Positions 940 through 4,853 of a DNA stretch of 20,832 nt are shown here, piece after piece; within the stretch, counting starts at the first letter, position 1, and every line of letters begins with the position of its first letter. Under the pieces are notes generated by a model, which ran no database searches, was not told the DNA's origin, and saw only the letters and a list, made by a program, of their open reading frames with translations. A program made the position numbers and the translations under genes. The DNA is from a virus. The stretch covers positions 1 through 20,832 of the IMG/VR virus record IMGVR_UViG_3300021961_000772; one strand, given 5' to 3'.

Positions 940-1779
940 ATGAACGACAAACAACTAATAACACAGAACAACGTGGAAATGCTTCACACGTTGCGTAACA
1001 CGGTCGCACCCGGCCTAACTGACAGCGAGTTCGCTCTATTTGCGGAGATCGTTAAGTCAACCGGCTTGAATCCTGTGACGAAAGAAGTGTGGGCAATCAA
1101 GGCAGGTGGGAGACTCCAACTGATGACAGGGATCAACGGATTCCTTCGTATCGCCAACTCTCACCCCATGTTTGACGGCATGGAGGTAGAGTTTGAGTGG
1201 GACAATAAACAGCTCATTTCAGCAACTGCCAAAGTATATCGCAAGGACAGGCGGTTTCCGGCTGTAGCTACGGCTTATATGAATGAATACGGCAAACAAA
1301 GTCCTATATGGAAAACGATGCCATCAGTTATGTTAAGTAAGTGTGCGAAAAGTCTGGCCATAAGAGAGGCTTTTGTGCAGGAACTTGGCGGCTTGTACAC
1401 CCAGGAGGAGATGCCAGCCGAGTATGCACCACCACGAGCTACGACTATCCCGCAGGAGGCTTTGATCGTTTCGGAGAAAACCAACCGAGTGATTGGGGCC
1501 AAGGTTGAGCCAGTTGAGGACATCGTAGACGTAGAAACTGGGGAAATCTTAGTTGAAGAGGACGATTTGCCTGATTTTATGCAGGTTAAGTCAAAAGCTA
1601 AGAAATCGAAGGCTACGACGACCTACTACAACCTGGAAACGCTACAGGGTGACAAATTGGTCATCGCTGAAACGTATCTGGTTGCCAATAACGCCAAAAG
1701 GTTGACCGAAACACACTGGAAGTCACCCATCCGACTTGAGAAACTGACTAGCTGCATTGATGAGGCTTACAATGAGTAA
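940..1779 (+). CDS. bet: Bet/RecT-family single-strand annealing recombinase, 279 aa
   Basis: Anneals complementary single strands in phage recombination and replication. The RecT/Bet core covers about residues 10-150, with TGLNPVTKEVWAIK (41-54) and MTGINGFLRIAN (62-73) matching the hallmark stretches of lambda Bet relatives. The C-terminal 120 residues are less conserved, with an acidic linker, a lysine-rich patch (about 217-225) and a small helical end. A GGAG ribosome site lies six bases before the ATG, and a tandem TAAGATG duplication at 908-921 lies just upstream. No lambda Exo-like 5'-3' exonuclease appears in the window. The partners seen here are an SSB-like protein (2853-3173) and an Hjc-like nuclease (4210-4563). 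Family assignment is firm; partner use is inferred. Confidence 0.92.
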   Translation: MNDKQLITQNNVEMLHTLRNTVAPGLTDSEFALFAEIVKSTGLNPVTKEVWAIKAGGRLQLMTGINGFLRIANSHPMFDGMEVEFEWDNKQLISATAKVYRKDRRFPAVATAYMNEYGKQSPIWKTMPSVMLSKCAKSLAIREAFVQELGGLYTQEEMPAEYAPPRATTIPQEALIVSEKTNRVIGAKVEPVEDIVDVETGEILVEEDDLPDFMQVKSKAKKSKATTTYYNLETLQGDKLVIAETYLVANNAKRLTETHWKSPIRLEKLTSCIDEAYNE

Positions 1780-1975
1780 CGATATACCACCGGCTGATTA
1801 CTGCCGACCACGCTTTGACAGTCCACGACCCGGCTACAAGCGACACACCATTTTCATTAACGTGGATCTGCTGTGGCGCTGTAAGTCAGTGTGCTCAAAA
1901 GACAAAATAAGCTTCACTACGTTGTTGGAGGAGGCTTTGCGTAACCGCATTAACTATCATGGGAAACTAAAATGA
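1772..1975 (+). CDS. small ribbon-helix-helix-like protein, 67 aa
   Basis: Possible DNA-binding protein. After a proline-rich head (RPRFDSPRPGYKR), the segment HTIFINVDLLWRCKSVC followed by FTTLLEEALRNRI looks like one beta strand and two helices, the shape of an Arc/CopG ribbon-helix-helix dimer half. I place the start at the ATG at 1772, which overlaps the end of bet by eight bases; ATG 1760 and TTG 1757 are in frame but add residues coded only by bet. The 3' end overlaps the next gene as ATGA. No operator is identifiable. The RHH reading is a pattern impression without a family match. Confidence 0.7.
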   Translation: MSNDIPPADYCRPRFDSPRPGYKRHTIFINVDLLWRCKSVCSKDKISFTTLLEEALRNRINYHGKLK

Positions 1976-2229
1976 TTAGCCAGATAACACAGGACGCAAT
2001 CACGTTTAGTGAGTCGTTTCTACCACATCCAAACAGGACGCAGGACCTGAGTGACTACCAAGCTGCATACGAGGAGGGAGCACGGCAAGTGCTGCGCTAC
2101 CTTCAACAGTTTGCTTGCCGAGTAAACGCTATAACACCGCCATTGGAGTCGAACAGCTTCCAAAACGGTCAGGTAGACGGCATCCTTTGGACCGTAGACC
2201 ATATCAGCGCACTTTTTGGAATTGGATAA
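1972..2229 (+). CDS. hypothetical protein, 85 aa
   Basis: Not recognised. The protein is soluble and probably helical in the middle (DYQAAYEEGARQVLRYLQQF), with no signal peptide or membrane segment. Its ATG overlaps the upstream stop as ATGA, so translation is probably coupled to the RHH-like gene and to bet. It is the last plus-strand gene before the convergent minus-strand unit. Nothing in the sequence points to an enzyme. A helper or inhibitor role in recombination is possible only from its position. Confidence 0.7.
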   Translation: MISQITQDAITFSESFLPHPNRTQDLSDYQAAYEEGARQVLRYLQQFACRVNAITPPLESNSFQNGQVDGILWTVDHISALFGIG

Positions 2230-2230
2230 T

Positions 2231-2263
2231 AAAAAAGCCGGTCAGGGGGAAACTCTGACCGGC
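2231..2263 (-). terminator. intrinsic terminator of the minus-strand HTH unit
   Basis: GCCGGTCAG at 2237-2245 pairs with CTGACCGGC at 2255-2263; a G-U and a G-C pair extend the stem to 11 bp around a GGAAA loop. Read leftward, the stem is followed at once by six T (2236-2231) and more AT, which is a textbook rho-independent terminator for the minus strand. Read rightward, no T-run follows, so it should stop only the minus-strand unit, although the hairpin could protect the 3' end of the plus-strand transcript. Confidence 0.88.
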
Positions 2264-2274
2264 CACGACAAAAT

Positions 2275-2311
2275 CAATGGAGACAAACCTATGAACGTGT
2301 CTCCTTCATTG
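2275..2311 (+). other. hairpin enclosing a ribosome site and a 7-codon ORF
   Basis: CAATG then GAGACA (2275-2285) pairs with TGTCTC (2298-2303) and, after a CTT bulge, CATTG (2307-2311). The left arm contains a GGAG ribosome site eight bases before an ATG at 2291 that opens a tiny frame, MNVSPSL, ending at TAA 2312-2314. The same GGAGACAAA leader occurs before bet. The hairpin would hide the ribosome site. Whether this is a leader peptide, a decayed gene start or chance is unknown. Confidence 0.35.
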
Positions 2312-2815: not shown

Positions 2816-2844
2816 ATACTAAGTGCTTTTGTAGTCTTTATCAA
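2816..2844 (-). promoter_or_regulatory. sigma70-like promoter driving the HTH unit
   Basis: On the minus strand, TTGATA (2844-2839) and TAGTAT (2821-2816) are separated by exactly 17 bases. Each hexamer matches consensus at four of six or better, and the spacing is optimal. Transcription would begin near 2809 and read into the HTH gene at 2781. A weaker plus-strand pair (TTGCGG 2790, GATACT 2815, 19 apart) would overlap it face to face. Confidence 0.7.
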
Positions 2845-2852
2845 GGGGATTT

Positions 2853-3173
2853 ATGGGAAAACCAACTAGAACTTGGCGAAACAAAGGGATCGATATTGCC
2901 GCATGGCAAAACGACGAAGGAAGGGTCTCGTTTACAATGAGAAAGTCGTACCTGAACAAGCAGACCAACACATGGACTGACACAAAATACCTTTACCAAG
3001 ACGATTTACGAGCCTTGGTTGAGCTATTGGAGCAAGCAATTGCCTGGAATAGTGGTAACGCCGCTGACCGAGAGGAGCATAAGTGGGCCGCCGTAGAATC
3101 TGGTTCACTAACCGAAGTTGTCGCAAAGACAGCTAAGGCCGTTAAGTTTGAAGATGATGACATTCCTTTCTAG
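2853..3173 (+). CDS. SSB-like protein, PC4-like domain plus acidic SSB tip, 106 aa
   Basis: Probable single-stranded DNA-binding protein. Residues about 8-65 (NKGIDIAAWQNDEGRVSFTM, then KSY, W, and a helix LRALVELLEQAIAW) resemble the four-strand-plus-helix PC4/YdbC-like domain found in small phage ssDNA binders, and not the OB fold of ordinary SSB. A flexible linker leads to the last eight residues FEDDDIPF, almost the same as the C-terminal tip of E. coli SSB (DFDDDIPF), which recruits repair and replication enzymes. AAGGGGA precedes the ATG. It heads the plus-strand recombination operon. The tip is seen directly; the fold assignment is a pattern call. Confidence 0.78.
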   Translation: MGKPTRTWRNKGIDIAAWQNDEGRVSFTMRKSYLNKQTNTWTDTKYLYQDDLRALVELLEQAIAWNSGNAADREEHKWAAVESGSLTEVVAKTAKAVKFEDDDIPF

Positions 3174-3181
3174 AGGATTTT

Positions 3182-3442
3182 ATGAAGCTCTACAGTTTAA
3201 TTCGGGTCATTGACGGCAAGTGGGAGATCGTTCTCCACATTCGCCGTAATGATGATTGGAAGTTTCAGTATGAGCCAAGGCCGGAGCTGCGGCAGATTAT
3301 TGACGAAAACTACCATGTCACGCCTGACGAGATGGCCAAGCTGTTATTGGATAACGTCATGCATTGCGAGGTGGTCGAGATACACAACATGTCAGGGCAA
3401 GGAATTGTAGTAAGGCGGTGCGATGATCAAGCCAGTGAGTGA
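3182..3442 (+). CDS. hypothetical protein, 86 aa
   Basis: Not recognised. It starts eight bases after the SSB-like gene with GAGGATTTT as ribosome site. The protein is mixed alpha/beta and acidic, with a strand-like start (KLYSLIRVIDGKWEIVLHIR) and a central helix (TPDEMAKLLLDNVM); there is no export signal. Its 3' end overlaps the next gene by 20 bases. Position in the recombination operon suggests DNA metabolism, but no motif supports a specific role. Confidence 0.72.
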   Translation: MKLYSLIRVIDGKWEIVLHIRRNDDWKFQYEPRPELRQIIDENYHVTPDEMAKLLLDNVMHCEVVEIHNMSGQGIVVRRCDDQASE

Positions 3443-3605
3443 ACTATTTAAGGACCAGTTGTGGCGTAAGCTCGAAGCACAACACAAAGCGTCTGTAGAG
3501 CAGGGCAAGGTAAATCTTTTTACCGCAAATCAGGAAGCAGCCATCATACGGTGGAGTAGCGAGGTACTGACTCAGGAGCGAGTTAAAAAGGAAACAAAGA
3601 AGTGA
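3423..3605 (+). CDS. small hypothetical protein, 60 aa
   Basis: Not recognised. A lysine-rich, mostly helical small protein. Start at ATG 3423, inside the 3' end of the upstream gene, with AAGGCGG as a plausible ribosome site. Its stop overlaps the GTG start of the next gene (GTGA at 3602-3605). The tight coupling on both sides is the main support for it being real. No nuclease or DNA-binding motif can be named. Confidence 0.62.
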   Translation: MIKPVSELFKDQLWRKLEAQHKASVEQGKVNLFTANQEAAIIRWSSEVLTQERVKKETKK

Positions 3606-4210
3606 ACGCTGACATACCCCCACTCAAGGTGTGGATTAAACGGGAGTACCTTACAAAAGGTGAGGAGTCAGGCTTTGAGGAGGGGGTAGCGTTTGCGGTG
3701 CAGTCCATGAAAGGCAGAGCATTGCACTTCCACGTTCTGCTAAAATCGGGCGCTCATTTCCGTCATGTGCCGTTGCATTGGTTGTGTCATAATGTCCCTG
3801 TTGTAACCGAGGAGCGGCCACTTGAAGCGTTACAGTTGTGGGACTGTTTCAGTTATAAACCAGTAGTTACCGTATTTGACCTGCTTAGAAACTATCAATG
3901 CGAGGCAATACTCCGTGACAAAACTAAGTATAACGCCACTTATTATTGCACAGTTGATTGGCTGCCTGATTGTGATTCTCAGTCTGGTTGGTTGCTACAT
4001 CCCGACCAAAATAAATGCGCCCATATACTTCTGTTGGAAAACGGACAAATCGGATGTTTGCCAACCAATCGAGTCCTCTTCAAAGACGGATTCTATATCG
4101 GAAACGTTCCAGACGCTGCCACCCGTAACTATAAAACCGTGGACGTTGTTTTCACCGCCGAAACCTGCGAGCGATGGTCAGTAGCAGACAAAGAGGAGAC
4201 TTACTACTAA
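3602..4210 (+). CDS. conserved phage protein of unknown function, 202 aa
   Basis: I recall similar proteins in marine and freshwater phage early regions, with a recognisable LWDCFSYKPVVTVFDLL segment at about residues 79-95 and a later HPDQNKCAHILLLENGQIG stretch at about 132-150, but no assigned activity. No signal peptide or membrane segment. Start is GTG 3602, overlapping the upstream stop, with AAGGA upstream. The stop shares one base with the start of the nuclease gene (TAATG). The cysteines and histidines in the middle could bind a metal, but no standard finger is apparent. Another open frame with lipoprotein features lies inside it in a different frame (3915-4184). Confidence 0.8.
   Translation: MNADIPPLKVWIKREYLTKGEESGFEEGVAFAVQSMKGRALHFHVLLKSGAHFRHVPLHWLCHNVPVVTEERPLEALQLWDCFSYKPVVTVFDLLRNYQCEAILRDKTKYNATYYCTVDWLPDCDSQSGWLLHPDQNKCAHILLLENGQIGCLPTNRVLFKDGFYIGNVPDAATRNYKTVDVVFTAETCERWSVADKEETYY
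3915..4184 (+). CDS. possible nested proline-rich lipoprotein, 89 aa
   Basis: An alternative frame inside the 202-residue gene encodes a textbook lipoprotein signal: MTKLSITPLIIAQLIGCL, more hydrophobic residues, then lipobox LVGC with Cys27. The mature 63 residues contain nine prolines and two more cysteines, and end LPPVTIKPWTLFSPPKPA, which resembles outer-membrane Rz1-type spanin subunits. The GTG start has GAGG nine bases upstream. The frame is open for 102 codons in total (from a TTG at 3876). Rz1 genes are often nested in another gene, but normally in Rz, and this one is on the opposite strand from the holin cassette. It may be a spanin, an exclusion lipoprotein, or a chance open frame. 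Confidence 0.42.
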   Translation: MTKLSITPLIIAQLIGCLIVILSLVGCYIPTKINAPIYFCWKTDKSDVCQPIESSSKTDSISETFQTLPPVTIKPWTLFSPPKPASDGQ

Positions 4211-4563
4211 TGGTAAACAGTAGAGCCAAGGGTGCCAGAGGCGAGCGAGAGCTTGCGAACAAACTCAAGGAGCATGGGTTTGAAGCTCGTAGAGGTCAGC
4301 AGTTTTGTGGCTCTAATGGCGATCCTGACGTAGTGTGCACCGAATTAAGCGATTACCACATCGAATGTAAAGTTGTGCAGGCCCTCAACATCGACAAGGC
4401 AATGGCTCAATCATTGAACGATTGTCACGATAAAACACCAATATGCGTACACCGGAAAAACCACAAGCCATGGCTAGTTACAATGTTTCTAGAGGACTGG
4501 TTAGCTCTAGTAAAAGCAAACCTTGGTCAGACGTTGAATCCGAACCAGGACCAAACGAAATAA
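4210..4563 (+). CDS. PD-(D/E)XK nuclease, Hjc-like Holliday junction resolvase, 117 aa
   Basis: Predicted structure-specific DNA endonuclease. The pattern is KGARGEREL (Glu12 within the G-x-x-x-E-R start typical of archaeal Hjc), GDPDVV (Asp38/Asp40) and HIECK (Glu52, Lys54), followed by an AMAQSLND helix. Length agrees with Hjc-type resolvases. I place the start at ATG 4210, sharing a base with the upstream stop (TAATG) and preceded by GAGGAG; an in-frame ATG at 4174 is possible but is coded within the upstream gene. In this operon it would resolve recombination or replication junctions before packaging, working with Bet and the SSB-like protein. Alternatively it is a general VRR-like nuclease; no cleavage specificity can be read from sequence. 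Confidence 0.82.
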   Translation: MVNSRAKGARGERELANKLKEHGFEARRGQQFCGSNGDPDVVCTELSDYHIECKVVQALNIDKAMAQSLNDCHDKTPICVHRKNHKPWLVTMFLEDWLALVKANLGQTLNPNQDQTK

Positions 4564-4853
4564 ACACTCCCGAAGCCATCATGTGGTTGGCCGTTATCGA
4601 CAAAGCCATTACGGATTACGTTGCGCCAACACCAGACTTATCAGCAACGTATGCACAAGGTTTAGATTGGTTTTTTTACGAGCGAACGTCAGTCCCGTTC
4701 AACCTGGCTTACATTTGCGACATGCTGTTCGATGACTCATCCAAGGTGTCAGCGATTCGTGCAAGGGTCACACGATTAAAAAATAACCCAGAGGAGCTTA
4801 AACGCTTTGTTAAGAAACGATATAACCTACGAATCAACAGTAGGTTTTTTTAG
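4443..4853 (+). CDS. phage hypothetical protein, start uncertain
   Basis: The conserved-looking part begins TPEAIMWLAVIDKAITDY and continues through GLDWFFYERTSVPFNLAYIC, a pattern I have seen in small phage proteins of unknown role. The C-terminus is strongly basic (RFVKKRYNLRINSRFF). The start is not resolved. ATG 4443 and ATG 4470 lie deep inside the nuclease gene and lack a clear ribosome site, while ATG 4581 lies 17 bases after the nuclease stop but would cut the start of the conserved helix. The extra upstream residues are serine-rich and look like shadow of the nuclease. The last codons form a terminator hairpin, and the stop overlaps the end of the convergent holin gene. Confidence 0.7.
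   Translation: MRTPEKPQAMASYNVSRGLVSSSKSKPWSDVESEPGPNEINTPEAIMWLAVIDKAITDYVAPTPDLSATYAQGLDWFFYERTSVPFNLAYICDMLFDDSSKVSAIRARVTRLKNNPEELKRFVKKRYNLRINSRFF
4824..4851 (+). terminator. intrinsic terminator inside the end of the last plus-strand gene
   Basis: AACCTAC (4824-4830) pairs with GTAGGTT (4840-4846) around a 9-base loop, and the T-run continues to 4851. Its sequence also encodes the last residues (NLRINSRFF) of the upstream gene. It would end the plus-strand recombination operon exactly where it meets the leftward lysis genes. Read leftward there is no T-run after the stem. Confidence 0.75.

Follow-up and report, generated by a model that had tools for sequence, protein, structure and literature searches.

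We propose, at odds only slightly better than even (a probability of about 0.5), that a small gene in a 20,832-base piece of an uncultivated tailed-phage genome (hereafter the window) encodes a ssDNA-binding protein that acts in place of a canonical SSB, that its SSB-type tip binds a C-terminal domain shared by two annealase types and thereby loads the annealase of the phage itself, and that the same tip probably docks host partners of SSB. According to this model, a PUR/PC4-like core, probably a dimer, would coat the ssDNA that arises from phage replication and recombination, while a flexible linker would present the tip. On the phage's RecT- or ERF-type annealase, the tip would bind the shared C-terminal domain, and this docking would load the enzyme onto the coated ssDNA, by analogy with what the tip of HK620 SSB does for Sak4. 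The same tip would probably let host SSB-binding enzymes act on the phage ssDNA. The features concerned are collected in Table 1.

Table 1. Features of the window in and around the gene encoding the tipped protein.
Feature	Position	Strand	Basis
RecT/Bet-type single-strand annealing protein, 279 aa	940..1779	+	PF03837 E 2.3e-27; phrog_252 (Bet-like) E 8.6e-40
Shared C-terminal annealase domain, residues 218-279, putative tip receptor	1591..1776	+	ERF-type match; reciprocal HMMs; predicts tipped gene
Shine-Dalgarno-like AAGGGGA	2843..2849	+	Sequence reading; directly 5′ of ATG
Tipped ssDNA-binding-like protein gene	2853..3173	+	ORF with ATG start, 106 aa; 50 other family records
Core, residues 6-73, predicted beta-beta-beta-beta-alpha, PUR/PC4-like	2868..3071	+	AlphaFold2; sub-threshold DUF3276 matches of relatives
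Variable linker, residues 74-98, probably disordered	3072..3146	+	pLDDT <55; aligns poorly across family
SSB-type C-terminal tip FEDDDIPF, residues 99-106	3147..3170	+	Kept in family; mainly synonymous codon changes
Small ORF of the run, no assigned function	3182-3442	+	Relatives in 18 contigs
Small ORF of the run, no assigned function	3423-3605	+	Relatives in 12 contigs
202-aa ORF of the run	3602-4210	+	Relatives in 23 contigs; phrog_3704, E 8e-41
Hjc-like PD-(D/E)XK nuclease	4174..4563	+	PF01870 27.6 bits, cut-off 21.1; found in 28 contigs
Last ORF of the run, 136 aa	4443..4853	+	Relatives in 32/37 contigs; no significant family match

The open reading frame at 2853-3173 is a real gene, since it has relatives on 36 other contigs and close relatives differ mostly by synonymous changes. 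These 36 contigs were obtained by searching IMG/VR with the tipped protein and its alignment (28-92 % identity), and a further 14 by searching it with the neighboring annealase domain, giving, together with the window, a family of 51 uncultivated-virus records; the longest contigs related to the window measure 33-37 kb. No relative of the tipped protein was found in 50,697 cultured-phage records, nor in GTDB genomes in two scans (with the core profile and with RecT). The window protein has no Pfam match and a PHROG match at chance level only, and PDB sequence searches with this protein, its family, one relative or the annealase domain as queries gave no match. Scans for promoters and terminators showed no greater richness than in shuffled sequences. 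Counted from the conserved start, family members are mostly 85-109 aa long, with a core of about 70 residues in which P4, G12, W18, K31, Y33, K36, K45 and L55 are invariant (family alignment). In L020, L028, L063, L082, L089, L092 and others, the N-terminus is extended ahead of the core by about 29 conserved residues with the pattern YQKK...VK.N.V......K.RKS.

The 106-aa protein terminates in KFEDDDIPF, and the first-pass annotation had likened its last eight residues to the tip of bacterial SSB. This likeness is confirmed across the family and is far from being peculiar to the window: the protein ends in PF in 48 of the 51 records, in PW in two (L043 and L044) and in NF in one (L036), almost always after acidic residues, so that 50 of 51 records have a PF or PW tip. 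The same is true of 11 of the 12 clusters formed from the core at 70 % identity. Common endings are DDDIPF, MDDIPF, MEDLPF, FDDLPF and DDKVPF. The SSB-type tip is not a chance feature. The family contigs encode 1,077 closed, non-redundant ORFs of 60 aa or more; 30 of these have a P-F/W end preceded by acidic residues, and every one of the 30 is a member of the tipped family. In pairwise comparisons of close relatives, the last eight codons show 2-4 synonymous changes and 0-2 non-synonymous ones. The linker that joins the helix to the tip varies in length and is poorly conserved in sequence, and the tip persists despite divergence of both core and linker. Its retention across the family, its uniqueness among the ORFs and the mostly synonymous changes in its codons show the tip to be under selection, as in bacterial SSB.

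In L043 (5001-5297) and L044 (3206-3499), DDDIPW replaces DDDIPF at the tip, and both records have Y in the annealase domain where most others have W. Both changes belong to a single lineage and are thus not counted as covariation.

The annealase is the constant companion of this gene. The first-pass annotation had placed the gene close to Bet, and indeed a RecT/Bet gene precedes it at a distance of 1.07 kb; the product of that gene scores 96.3 bits against PF03837 (cut-off 24). Among the 37 family records, 24 encode a RecT protein, seven an ERF protein and none both; wherever the annealase gene was located, it is upstream of the tipped gene, on the same strand and 0.3-3.5 kb away. In the six records with no annealase match, the tipped gene is at most 1.8 kb from the upstream end of the contig, and a C-terminal piece of an annealase remains in two of these cut-off records (L004 and the L017 contig, as L067). 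A PF00436 SSB gene was found in none of the 37 records, several of 33-37 kb among them.

The RecT and ERF proteins have unlike cores and a C-terminal domain of 60 residues in common. Residues 218-277 of the window RecT match residues 141-201 of the ERF protein L041 with an E-value of 1.8e-16. An HMM built from the RecT domains only matched 7/7 ERF proteins (E 4e-24 to 7e-8) and nothing unrelated among 2,230 ORFs, and an HMM built from the ERF domains only matched 25/25 RecT proteins and nothing else among the same ORFs. Searches of Pfam and the PDB gave no significant match for the domain, and PHROG gave a single one. Relatives of RecT occur in 283 cultured-phage records; neither the shared domain nor the tipped protein was found in cultured phages.

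As a blind test, IMG/VR was searched with the annealase domain alone. This search returned 40 contigs, 16 of them new, and in 13 of the 16 a member of the tipped family was located at most 5 kb downstream of the domain. In G037 (33.6 kb), the tipped gene, ending in DVDDDVPF, is at the opposite end of the contig, as expected for a circularly permuted genome. The remaining two new contigs end 10 and 271 bases past the annealase gene. The annealase domain and the tipped protein therefore co-occur wherever both could be seen. It should be noted that linkage and shared ancestry alone could explain this co-occurrence. The tree of tipped proteins mixes RecT- and ERF-linked members, with four changes between the two; branch support is weak, and we do not claim repeated RecT/ERF swaps, the support of the tree being too low.

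Two of these observations favor the neighboring phage annealase over a host enzyme as the primary partner of the tip: complete neighborhoods all hold an annealase with one and the same C-terminal domain, on two different cores, and in contigs retrieved blindly this domain foretells the presence of the tipped protein. Annealase loading that depends on an SSB tip is already known. Sak4 binds DNA covered by the SSB of phage HK620, and is stimulated in annealing, only if this SSB retains its last six residues (PMC5928155). As proposed for our case, the HK620 protein is a phage ssDNA binder whose last six residues (NDYPPF, compared with DDDIPF here) are required by the phage's own annealase. It is nonetheless described as a bona fide SSB, and its partner Sak4 is RecA-like, whereas the body here is predicted to be non-OB and stands beside RecT or ERF annealases with a shared tail domain. 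An annealase gene beside a putative ssDNA-binding-protein gene is likewise the arrangement of the annealase-SSB module of HK620 and Firmicutes phages.

The receptor side of the proposed pair also has a known counterpart, since Red-beta of phage lambda binds E. coli SSB via its C-terminal domain, with K253 essential (PMC8303780), and the last seven residues of SSB set the host range of RecT (PMC10711431). Red-beta resembles the present annealases in carrying a small C-terminal domain on a RecT-superfamily protein. The two domains, however, have no detectable sequence similarity, which counts against our proposal, and the domain described here occurs on both RecT and ERF cores. A survey of Firmicutes annealases describes one C-terminal domain on RecT, Erf/Sak3/Rad52 and Sak4 clusters (PMC8093625). 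That domain, presented as a Red-beta-related helix-turn-helix, may be the one found here or a different one; in the passages of the survey considered, nothing connects it with a non-OB SSB. What appears to be new is the loading of an annealase via a non-OB body, beside a tail domain common to two annealase families. A bolder version, in which the tip arose by convergence on a non-OB protein, the receptor domain moved between RecT and ERF proteins and the two form a self-contained loading pair independent of host SSB, is possible but less likely than not.

The first-pass annotation had proposed that the tip recruits host partners of SSB. This idea survives in a secondary role: host RecQ, ExoI, PriA and others are likely additional targets, because no PolA-type polymerase or DnaB-type helicase was detected in the 11 long records searched. 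Together with an O-like initiator in one relative, this result suggests that the coated DNA is probably also a substrate for host enzymes recognizing the SSB tip. One could go further and suppose that the tip serves mainly such enzymes, the protein on coated phage ssDNA recruiting PriA, primase, RecQ, ExoI, RecO and others in place of host SSB, and that the shared annealase domain has another job, for example binding host SSB or a nuclease. The probable need for host replication enzymes in phages with no PolA- or DnaB-type protein detected fits this reading, as does the nearness of the tips to the general bacterial consensus, and the Red-beta domain binds both host SSB and lambda exonuclease (PMC8303780). 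It leaves unexplained, however, why one annealase domain, on two types of annealase, accompanies the tipped protein. Moreover, a YqaJ-type exonuclease (PF09588) is absent from all 21 records considered, in which other nucleases are present, and we rejected the shared domain as a binder of a YqaJ/lambda-exonuclease-type nuclease. We consider a tip devoted chiefly to host enzymes possible, if somewhat unlikely.

The first-pass annotation had described the body of the protein as PC4/YdbC-like rather than OB-fold. AlphaFold2, run with 9 and 32 sequences, predicts strands at residues 6-10, 13-19, 25-35 and 40-43 and a long helix from residue 49, followed by disorder, with a block pLDDT of 80-92 across residues 1-70 and values below 55 in the linker. 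This order of strands and helix is that of the PC4/PUR group and not of a complete OB barrel, and the PF00436 profile found no OB-domain match in the tipped protein. The prediction thus agrees with a body that is not an OB fold. Bacterial SSB (PF00436) shares with the family the acidic D-D-D-I-P-F tip behind a disordered linker; it differs in its OB domain, in place of which we see a core of about 70 residues with no strands predicted after the helix.

The PC4-like part of the earlier description holds for the topology as predicted; in sequence, the family that comes closest appears to be PUR (DUF3276), a member of the PC4-like group, rather than PC4 itself. DUF3276 (PF11680) was matched by 10 of 32 members, with a best E-value of 0.001 and below the Pfam cut-off, and the highest score in the family came from a further member (22.0 bits, E 1.9e-4, against a cut-off of 23.1); the window protein itself gave no DUF3276 match in the Pfam search. 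With hhalign, the family profile aligned to five PUR sequences with E-values of 0.0002-0.0007, above all 40 shuffles, while T5-type PC4 scored near shuffle level, with no significant match. The PUR and PC4 query sequences were checked against PDB chains and public records. No PC4 family match was obtained for the tipped family in the Pfam search. Structure comparisons point weakly in the same direction: Foldseek ranked Borrelia Pur-alpha first, at an insignificant E-value of 0.14-0.19, and VIA gave Drosophila Pur-alpha a Z of 4.1 (2.3 Å over 60 residues), which is within noise. Foldseek found nothing significant in the PDB or BFVD, and no PC4 entry or SSB OB domain was among the matches listed, which does not argue against either fold.

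One PUR repeat consists of four antiparallel strands and a helix, and the homodimer binds nucleic acids (PMC3764826). The PUR/DUF3276 proteins (Borrelia Bpur and those of Bacteroidota) agree with our prediction in the order of secondary structure; unlike the tipped protein, Bpur is a regulator that prefers RNA, and none of the five PUR sequences compared has an I-P-F tip. The PUR/DUF3276 proteins L100, L101 and L102 of Bacteroidota plasmids end in EIKIDIDF, AIKLDIEF and EIKIDIDF, acidic-hydrophobic C-termini with a final F and without the proline of the SSB tip. The PC4-like ssDNA-binding protein of phage T5 (4BG7, cited in PMC8545432), for which a role in recombination-dependent replication has been proposed, is likewise a phage protein with the four-strand-plus-helix topology predicted here. 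In contrast to our family, five T5-type homologues and one Rhizobium-phage PC4 homologue have no SSB-type tip.

The core could also be a shortened and degenerate OB-type SSB (strands 1-3 plus the helix) rather than a PUR/PC4-like protein, with its function unchanged. The tip is of SSB type, and the E. coli SSB hairpin aligned to the family profile with an hhalign E-value of 0.001, above 40 shuffles. Since this hairpin aligns nearly as well as PUR, such descent is conceivable. We think it unlikely, as four strands are predicted ahead of the helix and none behind it, and as the PUR profile scores higher and DUF3276 is matched by many members.

As the alternative to recruitment, the first-pass annotation had offered competition with host SSB for its partners. 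The tip would then be a decoy that keeps SSB-dependent host repair or defense enzymes from working. In principle the tip would fill the pockets that bind host SSB, judging from general knowledge of SSB partners, and competition is possible; nothing was found that argues for it. The placement of the gene in a recombination set with an annealase, and the lack of a phage SSB gene, fit a functional ssDNA binder better than an inhibitor, and we regard a decoy as very unlikely. We give still less credence to a nucleic-acid-binding regulator or nickase of the PC4-like group with an incidental tip: the nickase AcrIIA22 does belong to the PC4-like proteins (PMC8545432), Bpur is a transcriptional regulator with a preference for RNA and dsDNA over ssDNA (PMC3764826), which also counts against a ssDNA role for the tipped protein, and position 14 of the family is an almost invariant acidic residue, but the tip is retained behind a variable linker, the association with annealases is strict, and AcrIIA22, compared by topology only, lacks the helix predicted here.

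If the proposed annealase loading is correct, the bacterial SSB tip would be a portable recruitment signal, placed here on a different ssDNA-binding fold, and its partner domain would be portable between recombinase families. How phages escape the host-specific pairing of SSB and annealase would become a directly testable question. The two partners would also offer a compact pair (about 106 residues plus a 60-residue domain) for recombineering where host SSB mismatches the known RecT proteins.

The tipped gene is the first of a same-strand run of small genes that reaches position 4853 and includes the Hjc-like ORF starting at 4174, in agreement with the operon described at first pass. The ORF at 4443-4853 is the most widely conserved neighbor. 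The label "ferredoxin" that phrog_3704 lends to the ORF at 3602-4210 looks doubtful for a gene in a recombination run. Members of phrog_18407, a family not found in the window, lie close to or directly downstream of the tipped gene in L028 (5309-5782), L008 (6330-6812) and 14 other contigs, and resemble a PD-(D/E)XK nuclease by eye. Upstream of its annealase, L028 also encodes, at 1140-1643 (-) and 1838-2287 (+), an O-like replication initiator (E 1e-8) as well as a RadC-like protein (E 1e-37).
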